DNA of 64,000 nucleotides from Styela clava (taxonomy: Eukaryota; Chordata; Ascidiacea; Stolidobranchia; Styelidae), in assembly GCF_964204865.1 (NCBI RefSeq), contig NC_135250.1, forward strand, positions 16,216,001-16,280,000, in the 5' to 3' direction. The translations under genes and the position numbers were made by a program. Below are positions 5,341-60,407 of the stretch, piece by piece. The notes beneath the pieces were generated by a model, which saw only the letters and a program-made list of their open reading frames with translations, did no database searches and was not told the origin of the DNA. Position 1 is the first letter of the stretch. Each line of letters begins with the position of its first letter.

Positions 5341-5555
5341 TCGAAATATTTGCTGAAAGACGTGGAGAATTTGATAAAAATGAACAAATATTTGTGAAAA
5401 TGAAGACAGTCTGTCCTGCAAATGACCAGGATGATGTGACAACTTCCTTGTCGAAAGAAAGCAAGGCATCAAAAATGCGATGCATTGCAAAAAATGTCAG
5501 TCAGAAGAAGAAAAAATATTTGAAAACTTGTCAAAATGCAGAATTACTTGTACTG

Positions 5556-21033: not shown

Positions 21034-21861
21034 CGCCCTATATTCTCAAATAACGCTAAACAAATATTGAACTTATTCTTGATATTGAGAAAATACAAAA
21101 ACAAAAAAATCAAATAAAACAGAGTCACAGTGTGATAGCTAGCAAATATGAGTCAGTATCAAATAATGAAAATTGATTCTTGATTATCAGGCATTGATCA
21201 AAATATTTACGAAAATTAAATAATCAATCAACATCACTTTTTCTAAATCAAGGATTTATTAATGACGATGTAATTTAGTTCAAATGAATAGTCGAATGAA
21301 AAACACTTTTTGAGCACTTTTTTGAATTGTGACTTATTGCTAAAAAACTCTTGGGTCATCACCTGAGAGCAATCAAGCCAAACGCTTTAATTATCTAGTG
21401 AAATAAGAGCCTGCAGTTATGACGTTTTGTTGAAGCTGGCGCTAAGTTCCCCATACCAGCTGGAGCTGAAGCTACTAGAAATTTTCAGTGAGTCCCCAGT
21501 TCTTGAATGTTTACATATTATTTACCTTTTATAATTTTTTTTATATCACACTCCAATAAATAATGAAATCTATCATTCTCAGCATCATGATTTTGAGACC
21601 CACTGCCGTGAAATTTCAGCCCAGCTCAGAGGTAAAAACTGGAGCTCTAGCTGCTGTTTGAACATACTCTGGCTCCAAACCTGGAGTCACGTTGATTTCA
21701 AACAAGCTCTGCTTGCTACAGTGTGAAAACAATTTTACTTTAGTGCGCTATGATAAGAAATCCCAAAATAAACATTTTATAGAAACTACAACTTCATAGT
21801 ATTAACACTACATGGAATTCTTAATTATGTTGTTATCTTCTTTTTAAGTATTGCACACCAA

Positions 21862-23586
21862 TCAAAAACTTGTCATTTTTCTATGAGTTTCCATTCTTGA
21901 CTTATGAATTTTAATATTAGATTCCAGTTCTTTCATGTTTGTCAAATCTTCCTTTAGTTTGTCGAGTTTTTCAGTCAAAGATTTGACGACTGAAGGATTA
22001 GATTGGTTCCTTCGTAATGATTCTTTTACTTTGAGAACTTTTGCTTTAATTTTTTTCATGTCATCTTCATTTTTCATCATTTGTTTATTGAAATTTTTTA
22101 CATTTTTTTGTTCAGTACCAGCCTTTATTCCAAACATATCTTTAGGCATTTCAATTTGCTTTTTAGAGTCTTTTTTAGCTTCACTGACACCTAAAGTCTT
22201 GTTGAGGAATGAAAAAACACATCTGTCACGTTTTTTTCTCCTAAGTACTTTTTCACTTCCTTGTGTATTTTGGTTTGTATCGCCAATGTGTTTTACACCC
22301 TTTTTAAGTCTTACTTCCATGCAATGGTCGAGCGATTTACCAACTGGAAGCATGACAATTGGAACAGGTTCTAAACGGCCTTGACTGCTTTTACCCAAGC
22401 CTTCACCTAATTGATATCCCATTTTCTGCATAAGTTTCGAGCCTATGCCGTTAGTGTGTTCTTCCCATAAGCCTAAACGAGGAGGCATCCCTTTGGAACT
22501 TGATGCTCCATATTCTTTGTATAAATTTTGGGGGGTTATCTCTACTAATATGTCTTCGTCAGAATCTACTTCATTTTCATCAATAATAATATGATTAGTC
22601 TCAGGCAAAAGGTCATGTAAAGCTAGTGTAAGAGTTGGAGATTTGTGCAAAAAACTAACAGAGTAAAGATTGTCTTCAATTTTAACCACAATACCAGGTT
22701 TCCATAATCCATCCTGTGTTTTAGCCAAACATTTATGTCCTTCAGTTAAATTTGAGTAATCTGGAGAGACAAAAGGCCTCAGCTCAAATATATTGACAAT
22801 ATAACCATGCGAATATCGACAGCCAGCTTCATCAAACTTACAATTCCCTTCAAGATAATATGGGCAAGGCTGCATTTCTTTCATAATTGGGTTCAAAAAG
22901 AGTACTTTAACGTTCATTTCATTATCAGCCTTATCACATATACTTTCATCATTTTCCACTGCTACTTGTATCATTGCATTGTGATATTGTGTACCTGACC
23001 ATTCTGTAGAAAACGGTGCTTGACATTTTACACCACTTATGTCATCCACATATTCAATACTGTCCAAAAATATTTCATTGTTTGGATCGGACGAGTCATT
23101 GTTTTCACATTTAGAAATATTTTCACTAAATATTGACAATGAGCTTTCATCAGTCTTATGCAAAGAAGGACATTCTGTATCCAAATTAGATATCTCTGAA
23201 TAAAAATTTGCTAATTCGTTATCCATAGTATGCCCATCAGCATCAACATTATCTGGATTGCTTTGACCTGTTTTGTCCTGGTCATTTTCTGCTTGTGAAT
23301 CATTGTTGTAAAATGCACTCAATTCATCTTCTATATTTGATGTTGTTCCACTCCTTACATGTTGTCTATCAGTAGCTATGTCATATTCCAATGATTCTGC
23401 ATTCTCAATTGCAGTTGTATTTTCTGATGGACAATCAACACACAAACTCAATAATTGAGTCAGATCATCTCGCAACTGCAATAAGTCTTTTACATCTGAA
23501 TTATTCGTTTGACTTTTTAATGCTTCATTTACTTGATCAAGTTGTTTCTTGTATAAATCTGTTGTTATGCTATCCATTGTAATCAT
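21862..23586 (-). CDS. ZGPAT: ZGPAT-like CCCH zinc finger and G-patch protein, intronless
   Basis: 574 residues in one exon (human ZGPAT 531). The N-terminus is a coiled stretch ([13 protein letters not shown]) followed by a long acidic, Ser/Asn-rich linker. A CCCH finger lies at about 240-260 ([20 protein letters not shown]). A Tudor-like segment follows (about 285-325; [20 protein letters not shown]). The G-patch is at about 375-415 ([17 protein letters not shown], with the conserved glycines). The C-terminus is lysine-rich coiled coil (about 495-574). This order is diagnostic of ZGPAT/ZIP, a nuclear RNA/DNA-binding protein described as a transcriptional repressor in vertebrates and linked to spliceosome helicase regulation through its G-patch. 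Translation may begin at the first Met or at Met4. Same strand as, and upstream of, the BNIP1-like gene, with 828 bp between them. Confidence 0.93.
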
Positions 23587-23906
23587 ACCAGAATGAACCT
23601 AACTAAATAAAATATATATCATGTCATCATGGATATACCGTAATTAAAAAAATTACCTATTATATTGCACATATTTTGACAAAATCGATGGATTGGTTCA
23701 CGCCAGCCTGTTACAGACATTTTTAAAACAAATAATGTAATAAAGAAAAGGATGAAGCAAAACCAACAACAACATAGCCTCCTTCTACAGCGTAAAAAAG
23801 TATGATTAGTATGCTATTACAACTTCAAATACTGAAATAGCCTGATACTGATCACAATTACCTTATGTTCTTATTGTTTTTTAAGATGCAGTGTAGTACT
23901 GTAGTA

Positions 23907-26582: not shown

Positions 26583-28010
26583 CTAAACTTGTATAGACAT
26601 TGGTATATATACTTTTCTATACTTTATAGATGATAAAGTAAATAAAAAACGATTTGATTGATTATTACTCTTAATTAATACATAGTTACATAATAATCTT
26701 AGCTCTCTTGTAAAATTAGGTGAATTTCTAAGTTTCTCTACTTTATTTCTACATTTTAAAGCATTTTTAACTGTGTTTATTACACTATTAACACTCGGCA
26801 TAACATTTTGAAAAATTACTGCATTTCGATGCAACCAAATCTTATACCTAGTAATAGACAATAACAAAATAATAGCATTTTTTTCTACTCATAAGAAGGG
26901 CTACTCAAATGCATTTTCATAAATTCAATATGGAGTATAATTCTTATGAGGTTGTAAACTATGTTTGACACTATTATTTACAGATAAACCATAATATACA
27001 CTTAATTGTTGCTCTATGTTGAATTCTATTAAATTTAAAACAGTTCTATTTTTTTGGTTATCAGTATCACTATCATCAAATCTATAATTAATGTATTCTA
27101 TAGCACACATTATATATAAACACATCCCAAAAATTGGTATATTTATAATGTCGTATCCTCCCAATGTCTTTGATTTACACAATGTCTCAATTTTTAGTTT
27201 AATTTGTCTCTCGAAAATAAATTTTTCTATCTGTTCATTAATTTTCTTTCCAATCTTTGGTGGCATGGGTATCCCTCTGGCCAAGTATAGGCACAAAGGA
27301 AGTATTTTCATCTTTACTACTAGACATTTTCCATCCAATGTCAATGGTATTGTGTTGGATAACTCTTCAATCTTCATTTTTATCTCATTGGCACATATTC
27401 CCCAGTTATATTTGCTTGTATCATAGTTTGCAAAATAAACATTCAATACATTTAATTTTTCTACAATATCTATATCTGGATGACTAAACTTTGATTTCCA
27501 TATTCCAATAGTCAGTAATTTTGTTTTCTTTAGGTTTAGTTTCATCCCCGTTGCCATTTCAAATCTTTTCAGTATTTCCAAAGCTTTGTATATTGAATTC
27601 CTATTTCTCAATATAAGGGTAATATCATCTGCATATCCTACATTTTTTATATCTTTATTTCTTGGTATCGATATTCCTCGTATTTCTTTAACAGAGTTAA
27701 TATATGTTATCATGGGTTCTACGGAAATTAAAAATATACTCATACTTAGTGGGTCCCATTGTTTTATTCCTCGTTCAAGTTGTATCGTTTCACTAAGATA
27801 TCCATTCATTATTATTCGGGATTCTGATAAGTTATATATGGACTTCAGTATATTTATCAATTTGTCTTTTATAACAAATTTTTGAAGTGTTCTATATAAA
27901 AATTCTTGATCTACTGTATCAAACGCTCCGTTGAAGTCTAATGATAATAGTGATGACTCACCAACTTTGTTTTGTTCCTGCACCAAAATATCTCTTGATA
28001 TTGTTAACAT
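26583..28010 (-). pseudogene. LINE ORF2, RT C-terminal half and tail domain
   Basis: Reverse transcriptase motif A is SLDFNGAFDTV, motif B reads LERGIKQWDPLS (the usual QGDPLS has Gly replaced by Trp) and motif C is GYADDITLIL. The thumb follows (LNLKKTKLLTIG). After a stop at about 26,925 the C-terminal segment RYKIWLHRNAVIF (26,583-26,867) is in another frame; the same motif is in the fragment at 35,124. The catalytic Asp pair is present, but the frame is broken at both ends. Confidence 0.85.
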
Positions 28011-28025
28011 ATCTGAACTTGATGG

Positions 28026-28712
28026 CTATTGACTATCTGAACTTCTTCTTCCAGAAATTGCTGTTTGGTTTTCGTCTATTATTTTAGGCAATACTCGTTT
28101 TAATCTATTTGCTATCAATTTAGTCAGTATTTTATAATCACAGTTCAATAGAGATATTGGTTGATAATTTTTAATTTCGTCTTGCTCTCCTTTTTTATGT
28201 ATAAGGGTCATATATCCCAATTTCATTTCTTTTGTTATAGTGCACTTTTCAAATATTTCTTCCATTATTTGGAATATGTCATTTTTTATTGTATTCATCG
28301 ATTTCTTATAGAATTCAATACTGATTTCATCAGGTTCAGGTGTCTTGTTTTCTTTAAATGAGTTGATTGTAGCCTCAATTTCTCCAATATTTAGTTGTCT
28401 CTGTAATTCATCAGCTTCAGTTTCATCAATTATCTTTTCACTATTTATGCTATCTAAAAAACAGTTTTTACTATGATAATTAGTTGTCGCCTTGGAATAT
28501 AACTCTTGATAGAATTTCTTTAATATTCTCATTTTATCTACTATTCTTTCATGCTTTATGCCTCTCTCATCTTTCAACTCATTCACATGAGCAAGCATTT
28601 GTCTTTTTCGAAGTTTCTTGAAAAAAGTTTTGTTGCATTTTTCATTTGCATCAAAATTGTTCGCCATGGATTGAATCTTGATTTTACTATTATTTTCATT
28701 CTGTTTTTTCAC
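28026..28712 (-). pseudogene. LINE ORF2, linker and RT N-terminal part
   Basis: 228 codons. FKENKTPEPDEISIEFYK and LIHKKGEQDEIKNYQPISLL match RT motifs 0-2 of L1-like elements (usually K.PG.DG.. and KKGD......RPISLL). A stop after RRSSDSQ separates it from the downstream RT piece by one frame. Confidence 0.85.
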
Positions 28713-28782
28713 TATGTTTTGTTTTATATTGTGAGAAGTTTCTCCCCTGAATGAAGTCTTTTCTTTAAATTTTCCAGCTTTT

Positions 28783-29199
28783 TCAAATCTTTCTCATATT
28801 CTTTTTTGCTGATTTGGCAGATATTACAGAATGTTTTATTACAAGATCTTTAATTTTTTTCTTAATTTCAGTCCACCATTGTGTTTTGGTTTCAAATAAT
28901 CCTTCAAGAGTTTTCCAATTTGCCCATTTCATTTTCAGTTCATCTTGAAACTTCTCTTCTTTGTAAACATTGATATTATTCTTCCAATATCCTTGTCCTC
29001 TTTCCTCTGTCGTTGTGTTAATTTGCATTTCAATTGAGTATATATCATGGTCAGAATACAGAGTGGGTTTACAAACATAATTGATTACTTTAGTTTTATT
29101 TATTGTAGAATAAATACGGTCTAGTCTGGCCTGTGTTAAATCATTTCTCCAAGTAAAAAAATTTCCAGTTTTCGGCACGATCTCATAAGAATCTATCAA
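28783..29199 (-). pseudogene. LINE endonuclease, C-terminal part
   Basis: NFFTWRNDLTQARLDRIYST and LYSDHDIYSIEM carry the conserved RLDR and SDH motifs of APE-type LINE endonucleases. The frame is separated from the N-terminal part by a degenerate stretch (29,200-29,440) and a hAT MITE. Confidence 0.85.
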
Positions 29200-29445
29200 A
29201 ACATTTCATTAATTCGTCCAATGATTCAGAAACATATTCTTCCCGTGGTCTTTTTGGTATAGGTGTTTTATCACGATTGATGTTATGTACGCAGTTTGTA
29301 TCTCCTCCTAATATCACTGAGTACAAATCTATATAAATTGTCATAAAAAACTTCTAGTTCTTGTGTTATTATGTTTGTCCTACAAGGTGCATAAATATTT
29401 ACAATATGCACTTTGTCACCATATATACTTGAATCAGCAGTTGAC

Positions 29446-29700
29446 CAGTGTTCCCTCTAAAGTGCACGCGCACACAGGTTTCAGAGGCATAGATTTACTT
29501 CGCAAAGACGTATTTCGATGTAATGTAACAATGTTCTCGGTTGGCAGGTTGACAAAGTTTGTTGTTGGCCCACCCATTACCCGGTTAGAACGCCAAAATT
29601 TCTTCATTCGTTTTTGCACAAATATTAGTCATTTCCAAAAAAGTGCGCACACACCAAAATTTCTGCGCACACATACTACAAAAAATTAGAGGGAACATTG
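29446..29700. mobile_element. hAT-like MITE inside LINE endonuclease
   Basis: The ends are CAGTGTTCCCTCTAA and TTAGAGGGAACATTG. 255 bp, with GTGCGCACACACC-type repeats next to both ends. The flanking octamers (CAGTTGAC / GTTATGAC) match only partly, so the TSD is eroded. LINE endonuclease text resumes on each side (GRVIT before, IYGDKVHIVNIYAP after). Confidence 0.75.
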
Positions 29701-30038
29701 GTTATGACTCTTCCCTGATTATCCCATTGAACATTATCAAATTTTACTTCAGAAAGTTTGGATTTAAACAATATAGCTACGCCTTTTGAGTTAGATGAGC
29801 CAGAATTCCACAGAGATTTCCCCCATTTCCATTCTTTACTCCAACATATTTCTTTGTCTGGAGTACTATGTGTTTCTTGTAATAATAATATATCTGCTTT
29901 TTGTTTTGATAATTCTTCAAATATACTTTTTCTTTTAACATTATCTCTGAATCCATTAACATTTATTGTAAGAATATTGATATATACAATCATTGTGCTT
30001 ATTAGGATTAATTTTTCAAGTCTAAACTGTCTATTCAC
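29701..30038 (-). pseudogene. LINE endonuclease, N-terminal part
   Basis: ILTINVNGFRDNVKRKSIFE and ADILLLQETHS are the first motifs of an APE-type endonuclease, with the metal-binding Asn and Glu present. It overlaps the 3' end of ORF1 by a few codons. The frame is interrupted by the MITE at 29,700. Confidence 0.85.
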
Positions 30039-36955: not shown

Positions 36956-37439
36956 TATGTTAATGCAGTAATCTCTGGTCCTGACTTCACTACAATGTCA
37001 CCCTCTATCTGTCTTTCAAACTTAAGCCTAACTCCAGAACTCTGTAATTGGAGAGGTAACAAAACACTGAAACAAGGAAGCCAGAAATTACAGTGCTATG
37101 GCTCCTGCCATGCTGACAACATTATTGTAAACTACCGGTATGTGATCTGTACCATTGAAAAATACTGAAGGCCTTGCAGTCAAAAATGAGATACTGTAAC
37201 TGACAAAACTATAGTACTGTTATATTATCAGTCACAGTTAAAGAAGCTAAGTGAGCAACATACTGATTTTCTTATTTCCTGACCTTAGATAAGGTCAAAT
37301 CACACTAAGGTAGTCTATAACTTGACAAAACTTCAATGTAGTGGTCAATTACAATGGTAATCTACTATTAATAATGCTTTTTTAAAAGGTCCAAATTATG
37401 TGCGATTACACAATATTCCTATTTAATTTATGAAGTGAC

Positions 37440-38078
37440 ATGCTGCTGAATACAATGTTTAAATCTAATTTCCGGACAATATCATTGACATATCGATTTT
37501 TGCAAAATACTATATACCCTATGTCCCACCAAAAACCTCATTTAAATGCAAAATTTGGAATAAAAAGCATACATGCGGAAAGTGTGAAGCAAAAAATACA
37601 ATCTGAACTGAAGTCACCATCGAAAACCATACCTTCATACTACGATCGATATGTATTTCCCGAACCTCCTACCTTGATTTCAGAAAATGAACACAACAAA
37701 GTTATATCAAAAGTCAATGAAATTGTCAAAGATCCAGGTAGACTTTTTGCTGTTGTACTCATCAGTGGCCACCAGTACAAAGTTACTACTAATGATATTA
37801 TTAGTACAATTGGATATATTCAAGCTGATTGTGGAACTCGTATCCGATTGGAAAAAGTTGGAATGGTTGGTGGTGCAGATTTTACACTAGTCGGGAGGCC
37901 AATATTGAAAAGGAACATTGTTAAAGTCGAAGCTACAATCATAGAAAAAACTCCTAGCATCGATGTCATTATTAAAAGATTTATGAGGAGAAAGAGTTTT
38001 GAAAGAACATATAAATTTAATTCACTGCACACTATTTTAAGGATTAACAGTATAGAAGTTCTTCAAGATCTTGAGTAA
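37440..38078 (+). CDS. MRPL21: Mitochondrial ribosomal protein bL21m
   Basis: 212 residues in one exon (human 205). The N-terminus is basic and hydroxylated with few acids (FRTISLTYRFLQN), fitting a mitochondrial presequence. The bL21 fold runs from about 100 to 205: LFAVVLISGHQYKVTTNDII, then DCGTRIRLEKVGMVGGADF, LVGRPIL and VEATIIEKTPSIDVIIKRFM, then basic RRKSFERTYKF that contacts 23S-like rRNA in the family. It is a component of the large mitoribosomal subunit. Translation could start at the first Met or at Met6; both keep the presequence. A polyadenylation signal AATAAA lies at 38,136-38,141, 58 bases past the stop. No introns are needed to explain the whole domain. Confidence 0.92.
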   Translation: MLLNTMFKSNFRTISLTYRFLQNTIYPMSHQKPHLNAKFGIKSIHAESVKQKIQSELKSPSKTIPSYYDRYVFPEPPTLISENEHNKVISKVNEIVKDPGRLFAVVLISGHQYKVTTNDIISTIGYIQADCGTRIRLEKVGMVGGADFTLVGRPILKRNIVKVEATIIEKTPSIDVIIKRFMRRKSFERTYKFNSLHTILRINSIEVLQDLE

Positions 38079-44840: not shown

Positions 44841-47800
44841 CTAACGTCCTAATATAGGAGTGGACCACGATGGAATTTCGTACAAGTGTGAATCAGTATC
44901 GTGATCTCCATCCGAAGTTAGTCTTTCAGCTTCTGTTATAACGGATTGTGCCTGAAAGTCAGATAGGACATTAAATATAAGTTTTTGCGCTAAACAAGAC
45001 TGTTTTCAAAACAAGTAAACTTGCTTCGTTCGTCAATAATTATCCGTTATTGAGATATAGGGATATTTATATATACTAAAATTGGAGCTCCAGAAGTATG
45101 TGCACCAAGATGGCGCACAAACTGAACATAGTATGTGTACCAGATCAGGGTTCAGGTTGTGTGCCATCTTGGTGCACATACTTCGGGAGCGCCCTAAAAT
45201 TTATGATTTTTTTGTTAAAAAGCTGATATTTGCATAAATGTTTAGCAAATTCAGATCAGATCACAACATAATTTTAAAATATGTGTTTGGTTTTCTCTGA
45301 TTTATTGAAGTGGCCCAGTATGACGTCATGAATCATATAGTCTCGCCACAAATAAGTTTTTCGGGGAGATTCTGAAAGTGCAAATTTTCGTCAGTTTAGA
45401 AAACATCTTTTTACCTTATTTTAGGGGATTGTAAGCAATAATACAATAATAATATATATAAGTTCAACTCACGAATGTGTAAAACACCGCCAGGGCTTCG
45501 CTAAGCTCTCTGATGGAATTTGAGTCGAAATTAGCAAGAAGCGATTTTGCCATTCGTGCATGCATTATATCAATTCTAGACACTTCCATGTCACCAATTC
45601 TTCGGCGAAGTCCTTCTCGACCTGTTTTCCCCATAAGTGCCTGTATTGCTGTCCAACTCTGGTATACAAATGCGATATGATATCCAACTTTACTACTTGG
45701 CATATAATTGGCATGCGCATTTAGGATATCAAAGTCTAATACAAATAAGGAAAGGGGCTTCAAACGTCACATAGTTCAACCTTATTAGGAACACAAAAAA
45801 TTGGGTAGATTTGTAGAAATATCCAGAATAATTTAACAAAAAACAGCCCAATAGAAAAACGGACGAGATAGAAAAATACCTAACATTTAACAATACCTAA
45901 TTTATATAACAGTAGCTAAATATCCCGTGACTTGTTCGAAAAGCAATAAATCACTTTATAAAAAGATAGTAATACTAATGTGTTAAAAGACTATTCAGTA
46001 TTCAGTATAGTTTGTCTTATTTGTACACTATTTTAGTCAATTCCACCCGCGTTTAACTTTAATGAGCTTGGATGACGTTCAAAAAAAATTCCAATATGTC
46101 GCACCTAAGAATAACATGCAACAACAAGAGGCCATGTATTAGTCACACTCTGCATTTGAAAAGTATACACTTAAAAATTGTGGCCATGTACACATTGCGC
46201 AATCACAGGTTGCGAGTAATCATACATAACGTCCCCTACCTGCAGTTGTGTTGGGTGATATCCGAGCAGAAGATAAACTGACATCATGACTTCAAGTAAG
46301 CCAGGTGGTGGTGAAGAATAACTTTTGATTTCTGCCACACTACTCTGTTTCAACCCCAGCACATTACTGCGGGCCTGTAATTTGGGTAATACACAAATAA
46401 TCACATTAACCACAAAGATGGTCAGTTTATTTTTCGTGTTGTTCTGTTGTACAATATTGTCTATCGTATACTATAGCAAGGAGATGAAATTTTCTTATCT
46501 ATTTCGAAAGAGACGCCCTGCGGCCGCGAGGAGGCCTACCATTTTTACTGCTATTCACAAATATGCGGTAGATAATATATCCCGTTGTTTATTCCAACGA
46601 ACCTGCTCCATTGCTGCCAGATCTTTCAGTATTTTTCTCGCTTGCTTCATTTCCGATGCCAAATCTGGTTCAAAACCTTTCTCGGTTATTCTCGCTATAC
46701 TTTCGTTAATAGCCGCTATATCTCGTCTTTCCATAGATTCCTCGATATCTGAAATTGTAAATTTCAGCTTGTTAGAGTGATTATTTTCCACGCGCAGTAA
46801 TTTAATTTAACATATTAGCAAAACGATTCATAGGTTCATTTCGTGTCCAAAAACTTTGGCGTATGTAAATATCCTTCAATAGACTGTTAAGAACGCTTAG
46901 TGAACGTAATGATTTTTTAGCATTCGTGTCACATTTGGGCTGGGGTACCTGCGCCCGTACCTAACCGATTTCAAATAATATCATATATATATATATATAA
47001 TTGGCTTCCAAATTGCAATTTTTTTACGATTGACGAAATGTTGCGTCGTTGTGCTTATTTTACAGATATTATAATAGACTTTGCTATTCTGAACATTTGG
47101 AACCGGTCCACAGCCCTTTATTCATCATCTTCAGTTTTACGTCAGTATTAAGCTTGTACATCAACGTGTTAGAAGTATCCAAACCTAATGTTACAAAATG
47201 CAGGTTGTATTAGCCCATTATGCCAGGGGAACGGGCTCGATTTTGACCACAAGCTTGCGCATTCTACGAGGCACAATAAATAGTGATTTATTACCCAACA
47301 TTAAGTAAATATTTAGGCAATATTACCGTCTCTGTGTTGAAATATTTGAAGCATTCTATCAACCATAGCTTGATCACAACCTTTGAGTACTCTTAATTCC
47401 GCAGTAATAGCCTCAGCTGCTGCTAGATCACCGGCGTCCATCGCCCGTTTCAATCGTCTCAAAAGATTCTAGGTTTACAAAAATTTGCCGTGTTGATAAA
47501 ATATCGGAAGCTGTTATTTCAGATTTTGATTTGGAGGTAATTTAAACATTGTATACAAACAACTAGCATGCTCCATAACCAATTTGGTCGCCGGAAAATG
47601 TCGTGTAGATACGGACCTTCGGCATTTAGGCAGTAGGCCTATACGCCTCAATAAAATAACTTTTCACACGATAAGAAACGGAATGCGCGTATTAACTATT
47701 TATTCAAACTTATGAAATACTATGGTGGATAACAAAAAATATTTCTCATAGAAAATATAAGGAAGAAAAGAAAAATTCATACGTCTGTCCTTTTCAAATC

Positions 47801-49672
47801 TTGCAAGAGTATTTCAGCATTCACTAGTTCCATTTTCAATTCTATATCATATTCCATTCTTTTCCCACGGAAAATAGCCTTTTCTAGTAATTTGATATTT
47901 CTGCTTGCTATCGCTCTTGTAATACCTGTAGAGTATAAATAGTCTTTCAAAATATTTTCTTTTCTGTTTGCACATTTTAGAACCGTTTTCTCCGATAGCA
48001 TCAGAGTCCTCCTATATAGATTGTTTTCCCATTCACGAAGTTTCATTGACAGTTTTATTTAATATGTCCCAATGATTAGCAAGATTGCTAAGCAATACAT
48101 GAACTACATCACCTTCTTTACATTGCTGTATAACAAGCATCCGTTGAGCTGTTACGAAATCTCCAGTATAGTCTTCCATTCTCAAAGCCATAAAATCTTC
48201 AACAGCATCTGATATATCGTTCATATCTCGTCTTTTGATAGCACTCTGCAGTCGATCCCGAACGGATACTTCCAGACGTTTTTGTTGTTCTCTGGAAATA
48301 TAAATGGAGAATGTGGAGTTTTTGTTAGATAAATATCAATGTTTGTATAAGTTACAATGAAAAATACGAAATGGTGAAGCAGAGTTTCTCAAACTGGGCA
48401 CTGGATTCCTCGAGGAAGCCACGGAGCGCTTCTCTATGAGCCACGAGCAGAGTCCTTCACCAGATTCGCGGTTACATTAATTTAAAGTAAATTTTGATTT
48501 GCTTAATTCTATGACTATAATGCATTTATTTATTTTTTGCTTTCGTTTTTTTTTCATTATTAAACGTGGCTAATAAAACAACCGAAGGAACTTCGATAAT
48601 AAACAAAACAAAAACTTTTATAGTACGGCAGGGGGCCACAAGTGTTGGAAGATTTGGATAAGAATCACGAATCATGAAAATGTGAGAAACACTGTTTTAG
48701 AGTGATTTTGGTCAGTCGAAATCACTTTAACTCGCAACACTCGCAAGACGCAACAACATTAGAAAGCTTGCGGAATATGTTGAAGATTGAATACCGTACC
48801 CACAAGCGTACCGTATCTCTTACTGCAGTTTAGTTCATTTGTTGATTGTGTTACGCGATTGCAGCAACAACAGTCAGTTATAAATATCCTTACAAGCCAT
48901 CTATCAGTTTGGTTGACGTGCGGAACTGATTTACATTTATTTTTTTGCTCGCCGATATTTGAATTGTTGAAATCACTAATATATACGTCCATACGAAGCA
49001 TTAATGTTATATTTGGGCTGAAGTACCTGCGCCCGTAATAAACCGACTGTACAGAACAATATCAAATATTATATGATTGACTTCCAAGCTGCAAACACTT
49101 TACGATCGACGAAAAATTGTGTCGTTGTGTATATGTTACAGATATTTCAATAGACTGTGTTATTCTGAATATTCGAACCTCTCGAACCTTAGTCTCGCGC
49201 CAATTGGTATTCACCACCGCGCAATTCTGCACTATAATTCCTCATAGTCTCTGTAACTTTTGGCATTTTAGTGCTGCCCGCAATTTCGCTCGAAAATCAA
49301 TCTCCTATATTTCTGACTGAGTGGGATCTTGCTTTGAGCAAATTTCGTTTAAACAATGTTTATGACCGTTTATATTTTTTTGTGTAGGAATAGTCACATT
49401 GGTTGACCCTTGACACCAGAAGTCTTAAGATTACTATACAACGCAATATCAAACATATTTATCACAAAGCAACTTTTACGCATATATATATTATCCGGTT
49501 AAGCTCTATAGCCATACTCGTTAAATACTAGCATGTTGTGACAACTACTGGCTTTATATTTGTAATAATTATGTGTTCAGAATTTGATTCATTAATACCT
49601 GCAATTGTATTAGAATTAGCTAACTTAAATACTTACCCTGCTGGAAATTCCCCATTCAATCTCAGTTGTCCA
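44841..49672 (-). CDS. Helical-repeat protein with dynein-stalk-like C-terminal module; probable 3' part of the VWA receptor gene
   Basis: Exons: 49637-49672 (tentative), 47783-48291, 47327-47468, 46603-46748, 46240-46374, 45473-45658, 44841-44951 (stop). The junctions are GT/AG with matching phases. The first exons encode diverged helical units of about 55 residues (LQSAIKRRDMNDISDAVEDF; DAGDLAAAEAITAELRVLKG; DIEESMERRDIAAINESIAR). The end (46374 to 44841) reads SSVAEIKSYSSPPPGLLEVM, then SWTAIQALMGKTGREGLRRR and SIRELSEALAVFYTFAQ, resembling by eye the second half of the coiled-coil stalk of dynein heavy chains, without any motor. No start codon fits exon 49637-49672, and its phase accepts VWA-gene exon 50575-50612, so these exons are probably that receptor's cytoplasmic part. 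A 1-base frameshift in a T4 run (48053-48056) must be skipped for a continuous frame. Confidence 0.65.
45084..45193. mobile_element. 110-bp foldback MITE, perfect 8-bp TSD
   Basis: Arms GGAGCTCCAGAAGTATGTGC (left) and GCACATACTTCGGGAGCGCC (right) pair over nearly the full length, including CACCAAGATGGCGCACAA. Perfect TSD CTAAAATT (45,076-45,083 and 45,194-45,201). It lies in the last intron of the helical-repeat coding unit. Other copies: 32,042-32,155 and a partial at position 1. Confidence 0.9.
48379..48694. mobile_element. Probable hAT MITE (CAGAGTTTCTCAAA ends)
   Basis: Left end CAGAGTTTCTCAAACTGGGC; right end GTGAGAAACACTG, whose reverse complement begins CAGTGTTTCTCAC. About 316 bp, intronic position upstream of exon 47783-48291. 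The TSD is not matching, so it is an old copy. Confidence 0.55.
49006..49178. repeat. Diverged repeat, pair with 46,928-47,100
   Basis: TTTGGGCTGAAGTACCTGCG... through GATATTTCAATAGACTG aligns with 46,934 onward (TTTGGGCTGGGGTACCTGCG...) over about 170 bases. Both copies are in introns of the helical-repeat unit and lie in the same orientation. Either a duplicated intron piece or an unclassified interspersed repeat. Confidence 0.65.
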
Positions 49673-49759
49673 CTGATTTAAATAAATTAGTACAAACACT
49701 CATGAAGCGTAATATTATAAGTTAATCTCAAAACCCCACGGCATTCGACATACAATTAG

Positions 49760-49765
49760 TTTATT
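49760..49765 (-). promoter_or_regulatory. Possible polyadenylation signal for exon 14 form
   Basis: AATAAA on the minus strand about 155 bases after the stop codon at 49,919. It would end transcripts before the helical-repeat exons. Confidence 0.4.
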
Positions 49766-49918
49766 AGCAACAAAAAACTAAATAATAAAAATTGAATTTT
49801 TAATATTAATTGTCACGTGGAAGAATTTTTCAATGTTTTTTAGGCAGAACAAACGCGACAAACTTAAGCGTCATTAATTTACATCGTGACTTTCGATCAC
49901 CGCGAAAAATTAACAAAT

Positions 49919-52900
49919 TTACTCCTCGTTATTCTCTTTTTCTTCGGACGTATCTTCATCTCCTGGACGCAAATTGATTTCTTCGACAGGAGTCGATTCT
50001 TCAGTCACTTTCGGCATTTGTGCTTGCATCAGCGGTACAGGCTGATTGAAACCTGTTTCTATTCTTTCGATTTGTTTGACTGTAGATGGCCCGGTATCAG
50101 GACTGCTACAACTCACAAACAAGTCGATCGTAAAATATAAATACACAAACAAGAATCGAGGAAGATTTCTGGTTTAAAATCTTTGATGCTAGAGTCGAAC
50201 AATGCCTCGAGGACTTTGACAAACTTAATGAGTGTTCTAAAAGATCCAAAAAAGCTGAACATACGTGTGTATATTGACTTGTCAGGAGCGACGAGCATAA
50301 GTAGTCAACAAAAAGATTTGCTGGAGAAAAGGGGATGACCTAAGGTTATAAATTTTATAGATGACATGGGAATTCTTGCAAGCAGTTCTAAAATAATTGG
50401 ACAAAAGCCCCTTTCTTTTAAATTGAACACTGGTTGATAAATAACAATTATTCCAACTCTCTAAGCATTTAAGTCGTTCAAACCTAAAACAGGCTAATGA
50501 CAGCACAAACACAGAGATATGAAAAACTAAATTTCACTAACACATCAAAATGATTTTTATGCGATGTATCTTACCTACTATCCATCGGACGATCTATTCT
50601 GCCTCTGTGAATCTGAATATGATTAACATTAACAGTGTCATAAATGGTTGTATAAATAGCTATATCAGTCCTGATAATAAAGTTGTCATGGTTTGATTGG
50701 TCGGTCCAAATTTGGGGGTGGTAGATATTTTGCTATTAGCGATACGACTATTTGTAGCTTATAAAAGTGTGCACTAGTATTTACGCCACCCTCGGGCTAT
50801 TCAAATACAATTATATACAGTATATCCAAATTAGGAATTAGAGTGTGGAATTTCTGTGTTCACCCTCTGTAGGGGTGTGGGGAAATCACTGTTGCACAGC
50901 CTTTTTTAGGTAATAAGGTTACACAAGTCACATCACAATTCACAGCAAATGGCCTGCACTATATAGATGTCATATTGCTGCGTTCAATTCCTCACCAATG
51001 ATTTTTTCATCCTATTCCCGTAACCTCCAAATCTGTAGTATACAGTTGCAACAAGCACAGCACAGAATACGATAAGACATGAAAAAACAATTCCAGCAAT
51101 TTCTCCCTCTGACAAACCGCTACTTGAGGAGTCGGTTGGTAATGCTGTGCTGTTGTTCACAGACACTACTACCGTGACAACTGTGGTAAAAAGTAATTGG
51201 TTCATATTCGGAGAGAATTTTTAAAACACAAAGCAATTTAATTTCCTAAGATTTACATTTATATGCGGCACGTTGTTGAGGGGTTTTTCAAAAGCATATC
51301 ATATAATATTTTAAAATATTGTTTATTTATATAAAACTTTGTCACACAAGCAAACGATATAGTGTATACACATTCCTCAAATAGGGTCATGTGAATATAG
51401 GTTTAAATTAAAGAACAATGAAATAGTGTATGATAGATCAACATACCTTCTTGAATTTGTATAGTGAAGGTAAACTCAGTCGAGACGGATGCATCACCTT
51501 GCAACGTGATATACAAATACACTGTGTCCCCGCCGCCGTGATGGTCTACTTCTTCAAGAGTCGGGACGTATTTAAATTGAACTTCTTGATTTGGACTGGG
51601 CACTGATAAACTGTAAGATATTTATACAAAATTTTTTTTTATTAAAACCAGCGTATTTTTATAAGAGATGTACATCATTTTACCCTGCATTCCTTTTTTT
51701 ATTATTAATAAGCACTTGCTTACTAAAAGTATCTATAAGTTTGTTTTCAGAAGTTCCGAGGATATAGTTGTGGTATAACATAGACACTGCCACAAATTAT
51801 TTTTGGTGATTCTTTGTATCTTTCGAATGGAGATTACTACTCTGAATTATTCCAGGTGTACTATATATACCGTGTTTCCCCGAAAATAAGACCTACCCTG
51901 AAAATAAGACCTAGCCTGAATTTTGAAAATGATTTTAATATAAGCCCTCCCCTTAAAATAAGATGTAGTCGAAAACGCGAATATTTTTTTGACCTAGTAC
52001 TAGTCGATAGCAAGAAATCTCTCCTACACGTTTTAAATGATTGATAATCTATGTTTTGCAGTTATTTTGAGTTAAAACGTTGAGTTAAAATATTTATAAG
52101 TAAATGGATATCGTTGTTCATATTTTGTATATTTGAAAACTTTGTATTTCTCTACTTTGTAATTTTGTTTTTGATAAATGAAAATATAAGACATCCCTCG
52201 AAAATAAGCCCTAGTGCTATTTTTCGGAAGAAAATTGAAATAAGACCCAGTTTTATTTTCGGGAAAACACGGCAGCTACTGAAGTTCTGATGTAGGCTAT
52301 GTTTGTACGTGAGTTTCACATATTTTTTCAAATAATTCAATCAAGTTTTAATTCTCAATCAAAAATAGGCTTGCGACTTGTTCATGTTCTACAGAAAAAC
52401 GGAGTCTAAACTTGTGAATTTCAATGACCTACGGAGTATAGCATAATTTTTTTTAATATCAATCGCCATTGGTTCGTTGTAGCAAGCTGGCATTTTGGCT
52501 TATTCTAATAAACCGTTCTACATTGCGTAACCTTGATTGTGAAGCATATTTTAAATCACTTATCATGCTAATAAAGGTGATGAAACCAACTATAGAAATT
52601 TAAAAAAAAGTGTACGTGTAATCGTAGTTGGCAGATGTTGGCTCCGTAATGATTGCCGAGTAATATAAATCCATCGTTCCCTGTGTTGTTGCTACGTTGG
52701 TATCGATTCCAGTTGAATTTACGAGCAACCTAATTGATCTGCGAATTATAAAATGCTAAGAGTGCTCGGAGGATAAAGATTTTCGAGTTAAAACTTTCTA
52801 GTTTCTAGTATTCACTATTTTACATAGAGCGCTTGAGAATCCAAGAGCTACGGTAATTAGTAAATTACATAGTACAAAAACAAACAAACTGCGATATATA

Positions 52901-55900
52901 TATAAAAAAAAATTGCAATATATATATTAATATCAACAACACCATATCCCATATTGACTATTTTACATAGAGCGCTTGAGAATCCAAGAACTACGGTACT
53001 TAGTAAATTACATAGTACAAAAACAAACAAACTGCGATATATATATATATAAAAATGACAATATATATATATATTAATTTCAACAGCACCATATCCCATC
53101 CATAAGATTTTGACCGAGATTCGAATATAGATTTTTGACTGCTGCCAAACAAGGCCCCGGAATGCGATAAAAATACTACCTTGTTTGTCCTGGATCGATG
53201 GTTCCTGAAATTACCGTTGCATCCGATGGTACAAGAGCAGTATCTGTTGAAAAGTAGCAAAGCATGGAGATAGTAACAATATTAAGATGAGACAACAACT
53301 TTAAACATGAAGTAGAATTTTTAATTGATGTTCACTAAAACAACAGAAGCAGTAAGGCTATCTTGTGGTCGGAAATACATCATTTTGCACTTTTCGCCCG
53401 GACGATATAATGATAGCCGCAACTAACAATAAGGTTATTCAAAATATTCTTGCGTTTTACAACTAATGGTTTCCCTGCTACCTGGTAATGACAGCAAGAA
53501 TACCTTCAGATCGTGATTTAGTTATTGGCCTGAATATGAATTTTATATGTAACCTGAAACTTGCGCTCCAAATAAAACGGTTATAACTTTTGTGCATTTC
53601 ATTCATAAACATGTATACGCAACTTCGAAGCATAGATAGGTCGCAGTTCACCTGCACAAATCCGCCGTGTAATGGCGTACTCCATATCAGTAGCTGTCGT
53701 AAAAGTGCTTCGTTGAAACACATGGTCAGTGACTTGCGCTGTTGCTGTCAAATTCAGCTCAGCCTAGAGTAATAATATAAAAAAGTGATGCGCAATATCC
53801 AATGCTGTGAATCAATAGTGACAGTTGTTGGGACTTGTTTGCAAAAAAAATGATTTTTTAATAAAATTAATGTCGTCGAATTGGTTCATGGGTATTACAG
53901 TAGCTCTGTTACATACTCACCAGTGTGGCAGCACCGGTCATTCCCACTGCAATAACATTGACGGCCGCTGACGAAGCTGCTGATGCAACACTTTCTATGG
54001 AGTCAATACTGTCACCGGCTGTAAGCAGACAGAGCACCTGGAATGTAATCATTGATGATTTTTAAATTTATTTTCATTTTTTATACCTATGCGCAATATT
54101 GCATTTAATACGGTGCACTCTTCAAACCTGCGGAGTGCCCGTATCCCATCCTTTGGCGCCATTTGTATTCGAGAAGACACTAGGGAGAACGCTAGAAACG
54201 GATGAACCGGTCACACGCGATCCAGAAATAAGTTGCAAGGTCGAAACAATAGATACAATATCAGCTTCCGATGCAGAACCATTGAGATATGCTGCAACCT
54301 TGAAAAACAAAAATTAGAAGTACCAAGGTGATTCATTTTTATATTAGTTTGTCGCACATCGCCACCACCACGTTGCTCCCGCAACGTTATCAATACATCA
54401 CGCCCTGTTTAGGCTGCTACAAACCTTGACTTACATTTCTTATTGGAATGCGGGTAATAACAAACAAAAAAATTTACAATAAAAATCAGTAACATACATA
54501 TAGGCATATTGACTCACCTTTACGAGACTCGAGTATTGGGCAACTCCAACCACCGTAGTGTTAGGATTTGAATCGACTTTCAATTGTTTTATGACGTTTG
54601 TCGTAATAGTTTTTGCACTGGTAAAATATGTCTCTCCACTGATCAGAGAACTATCAATAAGAAATACAACATCTCTTTGTGGTTTTGAACAACCTGCGAA
54701 GATAATGTTTTATTAGAAATACTGATGTTTGCATCAATTACTCTAAGTCAGCGGTTCCCAAACTATGGGTCGCAAAAGGAATCTTAGTGGGTCGTGAAAA
54801 GATGTGGAAAGCTTTGATTAATTATACTGGGTATTAGGATCGGTGCCGACTCGATTACTTAAATCTTCAAAAAAAAATTTAAATTGAATTAAAATTCTAA
54901 TCTCTGAAAGTTTCCTTTTTACGATCTTCTCAGAGAAACAAAATTTGCTACACAAAGAATGACCATGTGAATTTTTTACGCATAGCAGTTTTGTACATTG
55001 TACAGCTCTTCTTACAGTGTTTCCCCGAAATTTAGACAGGATTTAGATTTATTTTGAAGAATAACACTAGTTTTCTTTGGAAGAGGCCTTTTGGGTTTTT
55101 TATCAAAAATAAAATTACATTGTAGAAAATCACGGGGTTTTTTAATGAACATTATATAAAAACCGACATCCGTTGTTTTTATCCTATATATATACAAAAA
55201 TCAAGTGACAAATATCATAATTGTGATTGTGACATCACACAATCTTGAATAGTGGTGTGGTTACCTCAGGTAATTGAACCTTTCCTCTCCTACACATTTT
55301 AAATTTATTTTATTGGTAGAGTTTAATTAAAATCATTTTAAAAATTCGAATTAGGTCTTTTTTTTCAAGCCAGGTCTTATTTTCGAGGAAACGCGGTAGT
55401 TTTGCGATGATTAGCCATTGCTGTGTTCTGTGTTATGTCAATTTGTTTCCTACATCAATGTTTTATTAATTTAGTTAAATGGGTCGCCATAAGCTGTGGT
55501 AATAAATAGTGGGTCGCAACCTAAAAAAGTTTGGGAACCACTGCTCTAAGTAGTTCTTTGTATATTGGTATATATACATTTAGTAAAACTAAACCGACAT
55601 GTTTACGTTGAGTGATTTTACAAAAATCTGAGCTTGATCGCATATAATTGAATTGATCGGACCAGTAATATACCGAACATGACAGCAAACACAAGAAACA
55701 CATAGATAAACAGGACTCGATAAATATTACCTTTGCCTTCATTAACTGCATCAAGGGCATTTGCACCTGCAGGGTTTTGCATCCACACTTTTTATCATCC
55801 GCAAATATTTTGCACCCATGAACATTTGCACCCGTAATTTTCACGCATGGACCTTTGCACCCGTAATTTTAAACCCATGAATATTTATTTGTGTTTCAAA

Positions 55901-58900
55901 CGAAACGAAATTTCAGTTTTTTATTAAATATAATGATATATATATGTAATGGTTGCAGTCGCGACGTTTATAGTAATTATTATATGGAATAGGTTTTCCC
56001 AAACTTTCTGTTAATCGGTAGCCTTTGGGCAATTTTTTACCCACAAAATTTTCATATTTTACTGCGCTACTAAACTAAACCTGCTTCAGTGTTGAAGGAT
56101 AGGATAGGATTACATATTTACCCCGGGGGAGAGGAAAGCCGATAAGACGGCTTAATCATATGGCGAACCACGGCCTCTCGTCCAGGTCGTGTATGGGATT
56201 AGTTAGCTAGTTATTTGTTTTTCGGAAGCATGGACTTGATTGGACAAAGTCATGTGAACTGCAAAAATAGACTTCAATTTTACTGTAGTTGTAGTTAAAG
56301 TTTCTACTAGGGTAAAATGTGATTTTCCAAAGACTTTTTAAACTCATGTATTCAAATTTTTATTGTCGGGAATAAAAGTTAAGAAAAATATATCCATATA
56401 CTCAGTCTAATCCACGCCTTTAACGGTAAATGCACCTCAGTTTGGGAACCACTGATATATACCATTGATATATATATTAGTGGAATCGATTAGAATCGAT
56501 TTCGATGCATTGGAATCGATTCTTAGGGTTAAAAGTTGGTTGCAAACACGGTATAACGTTTTGTCTCAAGTCCTTCACATACATGTATAAACTGCTATGT
56601 TGAGTTGCTACGACGCCGGAAACTTCATTATATTTTTACAATCTCCTCTCACTCGCTCGTTTGCGCGAATGAGGGACGCATGCCAACGGCAACAAAAAAA
56701 CTTATCAAATATCACAGTTGTCGCCCAAAAGTACCTCTGTGTCCCAGCAACATCCGCTGCATCAGAAAGGGCATTAATCTTCGCGGAGCTTATCGTCTCC
56801 AAATTACGATCCAGACTCACAGGAAGACATGTGAACGGATTGAACTTTTTAAATTGCAATAAATTTTCGCTATGACAGTAATTATTTTAACTTTAAGTGG
56901 ACATATAGATCGTTTTTTTATTATGTTATTATTATTAGAATTCATTTTTTTGTTCTCATCATGATAAAATATATGTTCTCATTACCTACTGCACCAATTT
57001 CTTTGAAATTTTCAGTGGTTAAAAATTGTATTTTTCTTTAGAAGGCTATTGCGTTTATGTATTTCAAAAATGTCTGTGGGCTAAAAGGGATACTTTTTTG
57101 ACACGTAGTCGACATAACGACCGTTTCAATAATATGTTGTTATTATTGCTATTTTCGTCATCATCATTATAAAATCGCTTTCGCTTCGAATACTGGACCA
57201 ATTGCTTTGAAATTTTCAGTGGTTAAAGTTTGATTTTTTTCCAGAAGGCTATTATTTTTATTTATTTTCGCACTGAATTTTCTATGAATCCTATGAGATC
57301 TGATATTTCATTCAAAATTTTGCCGTTCTAAAATTTACTCATGGGAACACTGTTTTAAAACTTATTTCAAGCGGTTGCGTGATCGAGCCTGCAGGTACGG
57401 TACTGCTAAGTTGATAAGAGCAAATTGAATTGAGTTTTTAAAGGCCAGAAAAGAACCGTTCCACGCTCGAATAGCAGGCCTACAGTACAGCAACAGGTAA
57501 GGTACCGTACGGTACCTCTGTGGATTACGCTCTCATCTTTTCGTTACAGTTCTGATGTGAACAACATAAATTTTGTAGCCTACCTTATTTTTTTTTCTTG
57601 ATAAGAGGAAATGAATTGAGTTCTTGATGACAAGGAAGAACCGTTCCGCGAACGAATATCAGGCACTGGTAAGTTACCGTACCGTACCGCATATGATTAT
57701 CGGGGAATCGATATTTTCTTTTTGTTTAGCCCTGGTGCCGTAATGGAGAAGTGACTCGGATCACTTGGTACTTCCATTCCCGTTGAAAATTGGATGGAGA
57801 AGAACAGATCATTACCGCAGGAAATGAAAGAGCTATGAAAGTCCCTGTACCGTTATTTCTACCCCGATTCAGGTGCTGGTAAGTTAAAGCATATGATTTT
57901 GGGACGTTTTTACGGGAAATGTTTGACCATATTTACGGTTTGACTGCGGTACCTGATCCGATAATACAGAAGTGACTCAAATCATGTGATATTTGAATTG
58001 ACATTCGCGGTTTGACTTTGAATTCACGGTCTCCCGATACAGGTACTAGCAAGTTACCGCATATATATGAGTTTTGGGGAATTGGTCTGTGTGTCCATAT
58101 ATTTGAGCATTGCTCTCTTGTTTGTTTGTGTGATTTGGTCGACTGTGACAGGTGGAATATCCATACTACTTAGATTAGGCTTTCGCGTGCATATATTTGA
58201 ACATCGCCCATGTGTTTGATTTCATATGGTATTGTTTAAGTGGGTATTTTTTCTCGGTAAGCTATGTCGAGGAATCGAGAATCGACAATTTAGGAATCGG
58301 ATAAGAATCGAATGCTTCTAAGTAATCATACTTAGCATACTTACTGATATATAACCATCAGCGTACACGAAAGGGATCGTTTTGGTAACTTATGTAGGCT
58401 TTCTTACCACCATGTTAGCAATGCTGGTTGTGTAATTACGATTTATTGGACAAAGTCTGGTATCTGATGCATAAAATAATACATAGTTACCTGTTAGAAT
58501 GGGTGAGATCGCTGTTGTGAAATCAGAGATTAACATATTCTCATCAGCTGTATGGAGATAAATGGCCCACCAAATTCCCTGGAATTGAAGGAATTGTGAA
58601 TAAAAATTAAAGTAGATCAGCAGAACCCATCTAAACTATAAAACGTAGCCATACAGCTATAAATAGTTTAGTTACCAAGTTGTCGATATCATCCTGAAGA
58701 GTGTCACCAATTTCCCAATAGGCAATATGTAGTCTCTGAGCAATCGCTGAATACAAGGGAATGTCTAAATCAGCATAGGTTACTTGAGTCCAATCAATAT
58801 TGAAAGAAGTTTGTATTCCAGAATAGTAAGATGAAACATCATAAGTAGAGTCTGATATTGCTGTGAATGCATCGCTGTTGACCTGTTATTTGAAAGATTG

Positions 58901-60407
58901 AATGAAACGAATCGATCAGTGTTAAGTGTATTTAAACGTGTTTACTGGACAAAATGTTGCGACTGCAACGCTATATTATTGGTAATATTATAATTCTATC
59001 GTTTCTGTGTATAAAACTGGTAGTCGAATGCGATAGGATAATAACTGGATTGAATACTGATTAGCTCCTTACGGATACTTGAGAAGTAGTCGACCATACT
59101 TCAGACAATAAAATTCACCAAAGCATAACGTTACGAACGGTTCCATTACATTTGAACCCACGTACATTTGAGCCCATGACAATTGCACCTGCATACTATT
59201 GTACCTATGGTAAAAAAAATTGTTTTACGAATATCTGAACCCATACTAACCCATGGGTTTTAGCACCCGCATATAGATTGAAACCGCGGATATACACATG
59301 GGTTCAAATGTACGTTGGTTCAAATGTACGGTCACCGTTACGACTTACGTCCTACCCCATTGTTCATCCTTCACTAATATTATTCATTGTTTATTATACC
59401 AATTTTCTACATATATGGAAAATCTATCTATGTATATAGAGCTTTCGGTGAACATTACAAATCTGCCCATCCATGCCCCAAGCCCCAACACCATGATTTT
59501 GATCAATAAAATATTTATTTACAGCCCAGATGCCTCCGATATTTTGTGAAGCAAGTTCGGCTCCGTCTTTTGTGTCAGCATATGCCGAGTAGCGTATCAA
59601 ATTGAAATCCTCCTTGAAAATTCCTGCAAAAGAGATGGCAAAAGCCCTTATTTCACATAAGTGAATGAATGACATGAAAATTTTATACCACCAAACCGGG
59701 ATATGCCTCTTTAACCTTTTTATAGCTTGTGTACGAGTAATCGAGTATATATAGGATTTACGTATTGCATTAAAATGGCAGTTCGCTCCAATTCTAAATC
59801 AGCATGGCCTGGTGGGTTTGGCGAAAAACCATGTTATATTCCCGAATATGAAATTATTGCACGCTGGTATCACTGCTAAAAATTCCAATAATGCGTCATA
59901 AATATGAAGGGCGTGGTGGATTCACCGCAAAATAACGTTCCACTAATGCGTTGACGGCGAAAGAATTATTCCGAAATAGCATAAAAATACTAATGTGATA
60001 GGCAATAAATTTTACCATGATCGTATCTAATTGGGTAGGCCTACATATGACTTTCATTATGACAAATCAAACCAAAATGTTGTCTACATTTATTATGCTT
60101 AACCACAACATCATTCGATTACAAAAATTGCAATGCCACAACGCCGTGTTGATAATTTGTGGTGAACACATTCTATGCAGAATATTTAGTTAATACAAAG
60201 TAAAGCGGTTTACTCACCTGAAGCGTAGATTTTTGAGACACATGACTCCACAACCGCTGTCCCAGTAGAACCCTTTACAAGAGTATTGTCCACAGCGAAA
60301 CATGGGTTTGAAAGTATCAATACGACGAACAATGTACTCAATCTTGGACTTTTTGTGGTCATTTCAATATGGATAAGATCGACAATTCCCTCAAAAAGTT
60401 TGGACAT
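49919..60407 (-). CDS. Type I membrane protein: lysozyme-like domain plus VWA domain, 14 exons
   Basis: Exons: 60218-60407, 59523-59623, 58676-58882, 58491-58578, 54518-54693, 54128-54298, 53921-54037, 53652-53763, 53180-53243, 52616-52738, 51447-51610, 50996-51180, 50575-50612, 49919-50105; all GT/AG, phases agree, 640 residues. Signal/leader about 1-39 (LSTLFVVLILSNPCFA). Lysozyme-like domain about 45-165 (NIGGIWAVNSDAF, FNIDWTQVTYADLDIPLYSA), a module I know from other invertebrate VWA proteins; the position of its usual catalytic Glu holds Asp80. VWA domain about 196-387 (RDVVFLIDSS ... LLTAGDSIDS) with a degenerate metal site (Ile213, Ala318). A beta-rich membrane-proximal region (388-504) is followed by a TM helix 532-553 (IAGIVFSCLIVFCAVLVATV) and an acidic cytoplasmic tail. 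Exon 12 can instead read through its donor to a stop at 50984 (569 residues). Likely an adhesion or recognition receptor; ligand unknown. Confidence 0.82.
50711..50891. repeat. Intact copy of the G-rich repeat seen at 40.2/41.4 kb
   Basis: GGGGGTGGTAGATATTTTGC and GTAGGGGTGTGGGGAAATCACTG match the two outer parts of the sequence interrupted at 40,330-41,232. It lies between exons 12 and 13 of the VWA gene. Confidence 0.65.
51869..52273. mobile_element. AT-duplicating MITE (ACCGTGTTTCCCCG ends)
   Basis: Left end ACCGTGTTTCCCCGAAAATA; right end TTATTTTCGGGAAAACACGG. 405 bp. Left flank is AT; right flank has diverged. Intronic in the VWA gene. Confidence 0.75.
52811..53101. repeat. Two tandem copies of a 146-bp unit
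   Basis: ACTATTTTACATAGAGCGCT starts at about 52,811 and again at about 52,957. Both units contain a TATA-rich tract of different length and end CACCATATCCCAT. Intron between exons 9 and 10 of the VWA gene. Confidence 0.88.
54749..55543. mobile_element. hAT element, perfect 8-bp TSD, carrying a nested MITE
   Basis: Ends CAGCGGTTCCCAAACTATGG and TTTGGGAACCACTG with perfect TSD CTCTAAGT (54,741-54,748 and 55,544-55,551). Subterminal GGGTCGC on both sides. 795 bp, of which about 384 belong to the nested MITE. It lies in the long intron between VWA-gene exons 4 and 5. Confidence 0.92.
55014..55397. mobile_element. AT-type MITE nested in a hAT element
   Basis: Left end ACAGTGTTTCCCCGAAATTT and right end TATTTTCGAGGAAACGCGGT. 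Same family as 51,869-52,273 and 10,384-10,721; the flanking AT has eroded. Confidence 0.65.
55735..55885. repeat. GCACCC-type internal repeats
   Basis: Several units such as ATTTGCACCCGTAATTTT and TTTGCACCC(A/G)T in direct array. Similar text is in the MITE at 59,148-59,327. Confidence 0.6.
56096..56236 (-). repeat. Partial tRNA-derived SINE (3' part) with GGATA tail
   Basis: The tail GGATAGGATAGGATTACATA and the body GCCGATAAGACGGCTTAATC are from the 3' half of the SINE. The tRNA-like head is absent. Confidence 0.8.
56478..58320. mobile_element. Decayed hAT element with AATCGATTCTT-type ends
   Basis: The left end TAGTGGAATCGATTAGAATC resembles the right end on the minus strand (TAGAAGCATTCGATTCTTAT). 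A transposase C-terminus is at 56,700-56,875. The interior contains a duplicated block of about 210 bp (TTGAAATTTTCAGTGGTTAA at about 57,001 and 57,209) and several GGTAAGTTACCG-like repeats. The TSD is not clear. Confidence 0.5.
56597..56875 (+). pseudogene. hAT transposase C-terminal fragment
   Basis: 92 codons. ITVVAQKYLCVPATSAASER, then ALIFAELIVSKLRSRL and a terminal VNGLNFLNCN, is the ZBED-type hAT dimerisation domain (A..YL..PATSA.SER...A..I....R..L......L.FL..N). The catalytic part is absent. Relic of the surrounding hAT element, inside an intron of the VWA gene and in opposite orientation. Confidence 0.8.
59148..59327. mobile_element. Short MITE with ACATTTGAACCCACGTACAT ends
   Basis: Left ACATTTGAACCCACGTACAT and right ATGTACGTTGGTTCAAATGT are near-perfect inverted repeats (about 24 bp). 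The interior has CCCATG / TGGGTT repeats. 180 bp. Located in the intron between VWA-gene exons 2 and 3. Confidence 0.7.

Follow-up and report, generated by a model that had tools for sequence, protein, structure and literature searches.

Does the gene LOC120325398 of Styela clava, a stolidobranch sea squirt, encode a single transmembrane receptor with a dynein-stalk-like tail, or have two adjacent genes been merged in its annotation? The question arises from a 64,000-nucleotide stretch of DNA (C1:16216001-16280000; hereafter, the window), where a preliminary description had joined lysozyme-like, VWA, membrane and dynein-stalk-like parts into one receptor. A protein search using the receptor part as query identified the gene in NCBI, and we compared two of its at least three isoforms (the X3 label implies more): P0002, of 925 aa and labelled isoform X3, and P0001, of 986 aa and representing three sequences. 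One gene is the best reading and, in our judgement, a likely one. That VWA, membrane and dynein-stalk-like parts are joined is in line with the two predicted proteins (possibly not independent) and with a paralogue on C10, in which a transmembrane exon stands in phase ahead of the helical array, as it does in the window. Other elements of the proposed receptor found no support, namely its lysozyme-like head, a frameshift, the junction to a 36-nt exon and a count of 999 residues.

P0002 maps exactly to the minus strand, from 60407 to 44841, as 20 exons separated in every case by GT-AG introns; the assembly behind its annotation differs slightly from the one that we analysed (376.6 Mb), its contig having 32,746,820 bases where C1 has 32,742,855. 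Its coding length is 2,778 nt, stop included, in place of the 3,000 nt previously summed, and what had been read as a single frameshift base is a GT-AG intron (47926-48112) across which exon 48291-48113 joins exon 47925-47783. Exon 13 (50575-50612), a juxtamembrane cytoplasmic linker, does end with two spare bases (AG), to which both the exon starting at 50105 and the 36-nt stretch at 49672-49637 are joinable in frame, as had been proposed. Splice-junction mapping nevertheless showed that P0002 goes directly from 50575 to 48291 and that P0001 reaches 48291 through an alternative acidic linker exon (49923-50105), whose translation matches the window except for one polymorphic residue. Both models skip the 36-nt stretch, which is open and in phase, has a donor scoring 10.5 and could yet be an exon of another isoform. 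The splice difference aside, P0001 and P0002 differ at 7 positions, and both remain open. The donors at 50575 and 49923 score 8.8 and 2.2, respectively, the 19 donors of P0002 ranging from 0.7 to 13.2. The existence of several NCBI-named isoforms usually means that there is RNA evidence behind their junctions.

Exon 1 (60218-60407; P0002 residues 1-63) contains the start codon and a hydrophobic leader, near residues 26-44, that is likely a signal peptide. It is followed by the N-terminal domain formerly regarded as lysozyme-like, in exons 2 (59523-59623), 3 (58676-58882) and 4 (58491-58578). For this domain no Pfam match was listed at E<=10, the PDB gave a single non-significant line (E 0.019, with no stretch passing), PHROG gave a weak unnamed match (0.046), and no second copy was found in the genome at E<=1. 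The predicted structure of the ectodomain is too poor for judging a lysozyme-like fold, and a distant relation to this superfamily could still exist. The VWA domain, on the other hand, was corroborated by the family search (Pfam PF00092, 4.8e-26; 92.5 bits versus a cut-off of 23.8) at P0002 residues 203-377, and occupies exons 5 (54518-54693), 6 (54128-54298), 7 (53921-54037) and 8 (53652-53763). In the PDB it matches 37 sequences at E<=0.001, which are chains of collagen VI, vWF and integrin alpha-M/X (a few named only integrin or CD11B), with values of 2.7e-83 to the multi-VWA collagen VI alpha3 and 1.8e-10 to vWF. The window protein shares one VWA domain of this type with adhesion proteins such as collagen VI, vWF (A domains) and the integrins alpha-M/alpha-X (I domains), but none of these has a tail like its own, and its metal site (DSSLI, LLTAG) looks degenerate; the LLTAG of exon 7 occupies the place where a TDG-type motif is usual.

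The membrane-proximal ectodomain spans exons 9 (53180-53243), 10 (52616-52738) and 11 (51447-51610), the last with no Pfam match over the cut-off. Exon 12 (50996-51180) encodes a Ser/Thr stalk, a candidate transmembrane helix and a basic stop-transfer sequence. In agreement with the membrane segment originally described, there is one strong hydrophobic peak (2.74), given by 19-residue windows at 532-535 and covering about P0002 residues 532-553. By hydropathy, a leader and one transmembrane helix are present, as in a single-pass receptor.

Beyond the membrane, four related two-helix repeats, one per exon (48291-48113, 47925-47783, 47468-47327 and 46748-46603), form a rod, the fourth continuing into a CC1-like helix. 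By eye they follow the pattern LxxAIxxRDIxxLxxAI...AxxLLxxL, seen also in relatives on C9 and C10, and this region (residues 581-760) is modelled as helices at low confidence, with ten-residue means of 36-72. Two exons, 46240-46374 (SSVAEIKSYSSPPPG...LLLGYHPTQLQ) and 45473-45658 (SWTAIQALMGKTGREGLRRR...SEALAVFYTF), then encode the dynein-like module, and the last one (44841-44951) the C-terminal tail and stop. The first of these stretches had been likened to the distal stalk of dynein; the resemblance is in fact stronger, and the stretch belongs to a whole dynein microtubule-binding domain (MTBD) fold. In the structure model, the CC1 proline turn leads into a globular helical head whose final helix carries conserved aromatics and closes it; the match to the dynein MTBD fold is at 3.0 A over 140 residues. 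Single-sequence scores are weak: the curated Pfam MT cut-off of 24 bits is missed both by P0002 (13.1 bits) and by the module alone (17 bits), and phmmer against the PDB gives 0.013. Such scores might suit a likeness due to mere shared coiled-coil composition, which we consider highly improbable given that profile searches match dyneins across the globular part, conserved prolines and last helix included, and given the fold match. We are almost certain that the tail descends from a dynein MTBD.

The tail shares with the dynein heavy chain (Pfam PF12777, MT) the full MTBD fold, with its CC1 proline turn, conserved W and last helix, but it differs in several ways: no AAA family that would signal an AAA+ ring and linker is listed in P0002 at E<=1, helical repeats stand in place of CC1, and the model leaves only about 23 residues past the last helix, so that there is no long CC2 return coil. 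Additionally, its H2-H3 region is three residues longer than in the dynein-2 of the Styela genome, and the basic residues of helix H6 are substituted. An MTBD-like fold was also matched, apart from the dyneins, in a microtubule entry, chain L of 9ya2 (Toxoplasma intraconoidal microtubule 1). We take this chain to be ICMAP2, from its residue numbers and 162 residues rather than from a chain name, and know of no receptor part in this protein. It is a protist microtubule protein (PMC12819142).

Substitutions in H6 bear on whether the module truly binds microtubules, so that the protein would link them directly to the plasma membrane. According to work cited in a 2016 study (PMC4987762), alpha-tubulin glutamates are contacted by two H6 residues, R3382 in mouse and R3469 in Dictyostelium, and the simulations of that study likewise hold this residue near those glutamates. 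By alignment, not from a solved structure, the equivalent of R3382 lies 11 residues before the conserved W, which is F in the window. For human DYNC1H1 the alignment extends to residue 3396, close to its W, from which mouse 3382 would follow by the difference in numbering between the two species. At this position (-11) the window has Glu and six relatives have D, A, E, D, D and D, so that it is acidic in 6/7 family copies and Ala in the other; an eighth sequence (L035) lacks the H6 part. Arginine is not universal among the ten dyneins compared, which show R in Styela L001, yeast and human DYNC2H1; K in DNAH6 and 2rr7_A; and T, S, G, N and T, respectively, in DNAH9, DNAH17, 7kzm_B, 9y6s_5c and Styela L006. 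All five dyneins without Arg/Lys at -11 have Lys at -10, a position taken by I, L, M or V in every one of the seven family copies. A basic residue at either position is thus found in 10/10 dyneins versus 0/7 family copies; widening the comparison from one position to two left our estimate for microtubule binding unchanged. Two copies, those of the window and C9:11572k, have R at -12. Another mode of tubulin binding is possible because the relatives have in common a basic GRExLxRR stretch, ending in a basic residue in 6/7, and because their heads have net charges of +1 to +6, versus 0 in L001. Still, direct binding to microtubules seems doubtful to us: the basic H6 residues are lost, the tubulin-contact position is acidic, and the head would more likely have been put to a new use in docking proteins than have stayed a classical microtubule grip. 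L001 (G000:C5:15092126) is itself a dynein-2-like heavy chain in one open frame of 4,311 residues, with human DYNC2H1 as its best PDB match, whereas matches to the other dyneins of the Styela genome fall in short open frames.

As judged from the sequences, the tail is a family feature: about ten loci in Styela, a count that is a lower bound, have related helical and MTBD-like parts. Besides the window, relatives occur on C9 (near 11195k, 11223k, 11230k, 11246k, 11572k and 11607k), C10:15178k, C14:9866k and C16:16176k; a weak extra match at C4:7727k, also PF12777-positive in two places, is probably a dynein. Both halves of the module were read and aligned in five relatives (C14, C9:11195k, C10, C16 and C9:11223k), where they lie in separate open frames split before the W, at the exon junction of the window. 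On C10, a hydrophobic helix (FAIIAGVVGIILGICVVFAVKK...) is encoded by an exon whose end is in phase 0, a phase-0 helical exon follows 421 bases on, and a simple chain of 12 exons built from there reaches the module by way of the repeats without a stop; its upstream region has by eye SGDETT-type repeats, not VWA. A VWA-like stretch (0.004, under the cut-off) precedes the helical exon at C9:11195k. Just upstream of that gene, C9:11176742-11183630 (L072) shows by eye exons resembling MAM and EGF domains, together with a Thr-rich stalk and a transmembrane exon that has its own stop; these probably belong to a different gene. Also on C9, two open frames of 556 aa (L062, 11223k, plus strand) and 545 aa (L050, 11246k, minus strand) are 90.8% identical, both end in the first half of the module, and are a recent inverted duplication within the local cluster.

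The alternative to one gene is that a VWA receptor whose last exon is the acidic one, with its stop at 49919, lies next to a cytoplasmic helical/MTBD-like gene, and that both were merged by the predictor or by read-through transcripts. Several observations favour this or weigh against a single gene. The joined NCBI models are predictions. For the receptor there is a good terminal exon, in frame and closed by a stop, and an AATAAA 154 bases later (49765), as might be expected where a separate gene ends, although we estimate that a hexamer of this type is expected about once per kilobase at this base composition. The donor at 49923 is weak, though that at 50575 is good. The helical unit had been said to have no usable start, but the 36-nt stretch has an ATG and, just downstream, its strong donor; the frame of this ATG requires another acceptor, lying 2 nt further downstream. 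Among the paralogues, those on C9 and C14 have helical open frames of considerable length and no demonstrated membrane exon: no transmembrane helix was shown at C9:11195k in the same gene as the VWA-like stretch, nor was a convincing one found on C14, the scans having covered these two and C10. On C10 itself, the chain start at the transmembrane exon was chosen by hand, part of the module is mis-spliced, and the 421-base intron holds two ATTAAA. Lastly, protein searches, each scoring about 8,000 candidates, found no relative of the tail outside Styela; with the receptor as query, one fish VWA protein matched over 26% of the query. Yet both NCBI models join the parts, by different junctions, the ATG frame does not fit the acceptor in question, and the C10 paralogue shows the same order of transmembrane helix, helical repeats and module, across an intron without AATAAA. 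Joining of the tail to a membrane exon is supported by the public models in the window and moderately on C10, and we regard two genes as unlikely.

If LOC120325398 is one gene, the choice of linker could matter. The donor of the alternative exon (GA|GTAAAT) lies in its last codons, and splicing at 49923 removes the stop TAA at 49921-49919; since the donor GT overlaps the stop codon, it depends on splicing whether translation of the receptor stops here or goes on. Without this splice the receptor would end at that TAA, and use of the linker exon 50105-49923 could switch the receptor between forms with and without the dynein-like tail.

Our proposal, which we consider likely, is a single-pass surface protein for adhesion or recognition, composed of a leader, an N-terminal domain, a VWA domain, a membrane-proximal segment, a transmembrane helix and a cytoplasmic four-repeat rod with a terminal MTBD fold. 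The VWA head would bind a ligand outside the cell and the rod would present the dynein-like head to an intracellular partner. The analysis shows how the public model maps to exons, the VWA domain, the hydrophobic segment, the homology and predicted fold of the module and its altered residues, while a place at the cell surface, binding of a ligand, docking to a partner and the isoform switch are inferred. More speculatively, and with small likelihood in our view, the gene might belong to a tunicate transmembrane receptor family with exchangeable outer parts, such as the VWA domain in the window and the SGDETT-type repeats of C10, and a common dynein-stalk-head tail on a repeat rod, wiring cell-surface recognition directly to the microtubule or ciliary machinery under a stop-overlapping splice switch. 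A dynein head as the cytoplasmic end of a receptor would, if true, be a new route from outside recognition to intracellular machinery, and would mean that in animals evolution of the stalk head was not confined to motors; the family also offers a ready test of the role of the MTBD fold after loss of tubulin contact. Among the open-licence PMC papers listed by our searches, none was on a receptor with a dynein-stalk tail, and no paper of that collection mentions LOC120325398.

The window contains other open frames, identified by eye. Those at 26928-30038 (minus strand) and 5435-5914 (plus strand) look like reverse transcriptase and endonuclease of long interspersed element (LINE) type. In the same way, 20305-21045 (minus) looks SEC20/BNIP1-like, 21865-23598 (minus) seems to be a ZGPAT-like protein with CCCH and G-patch motifs, and 37434-38075 (plus) looks similar to mitochondrial ribosomal protein L21.

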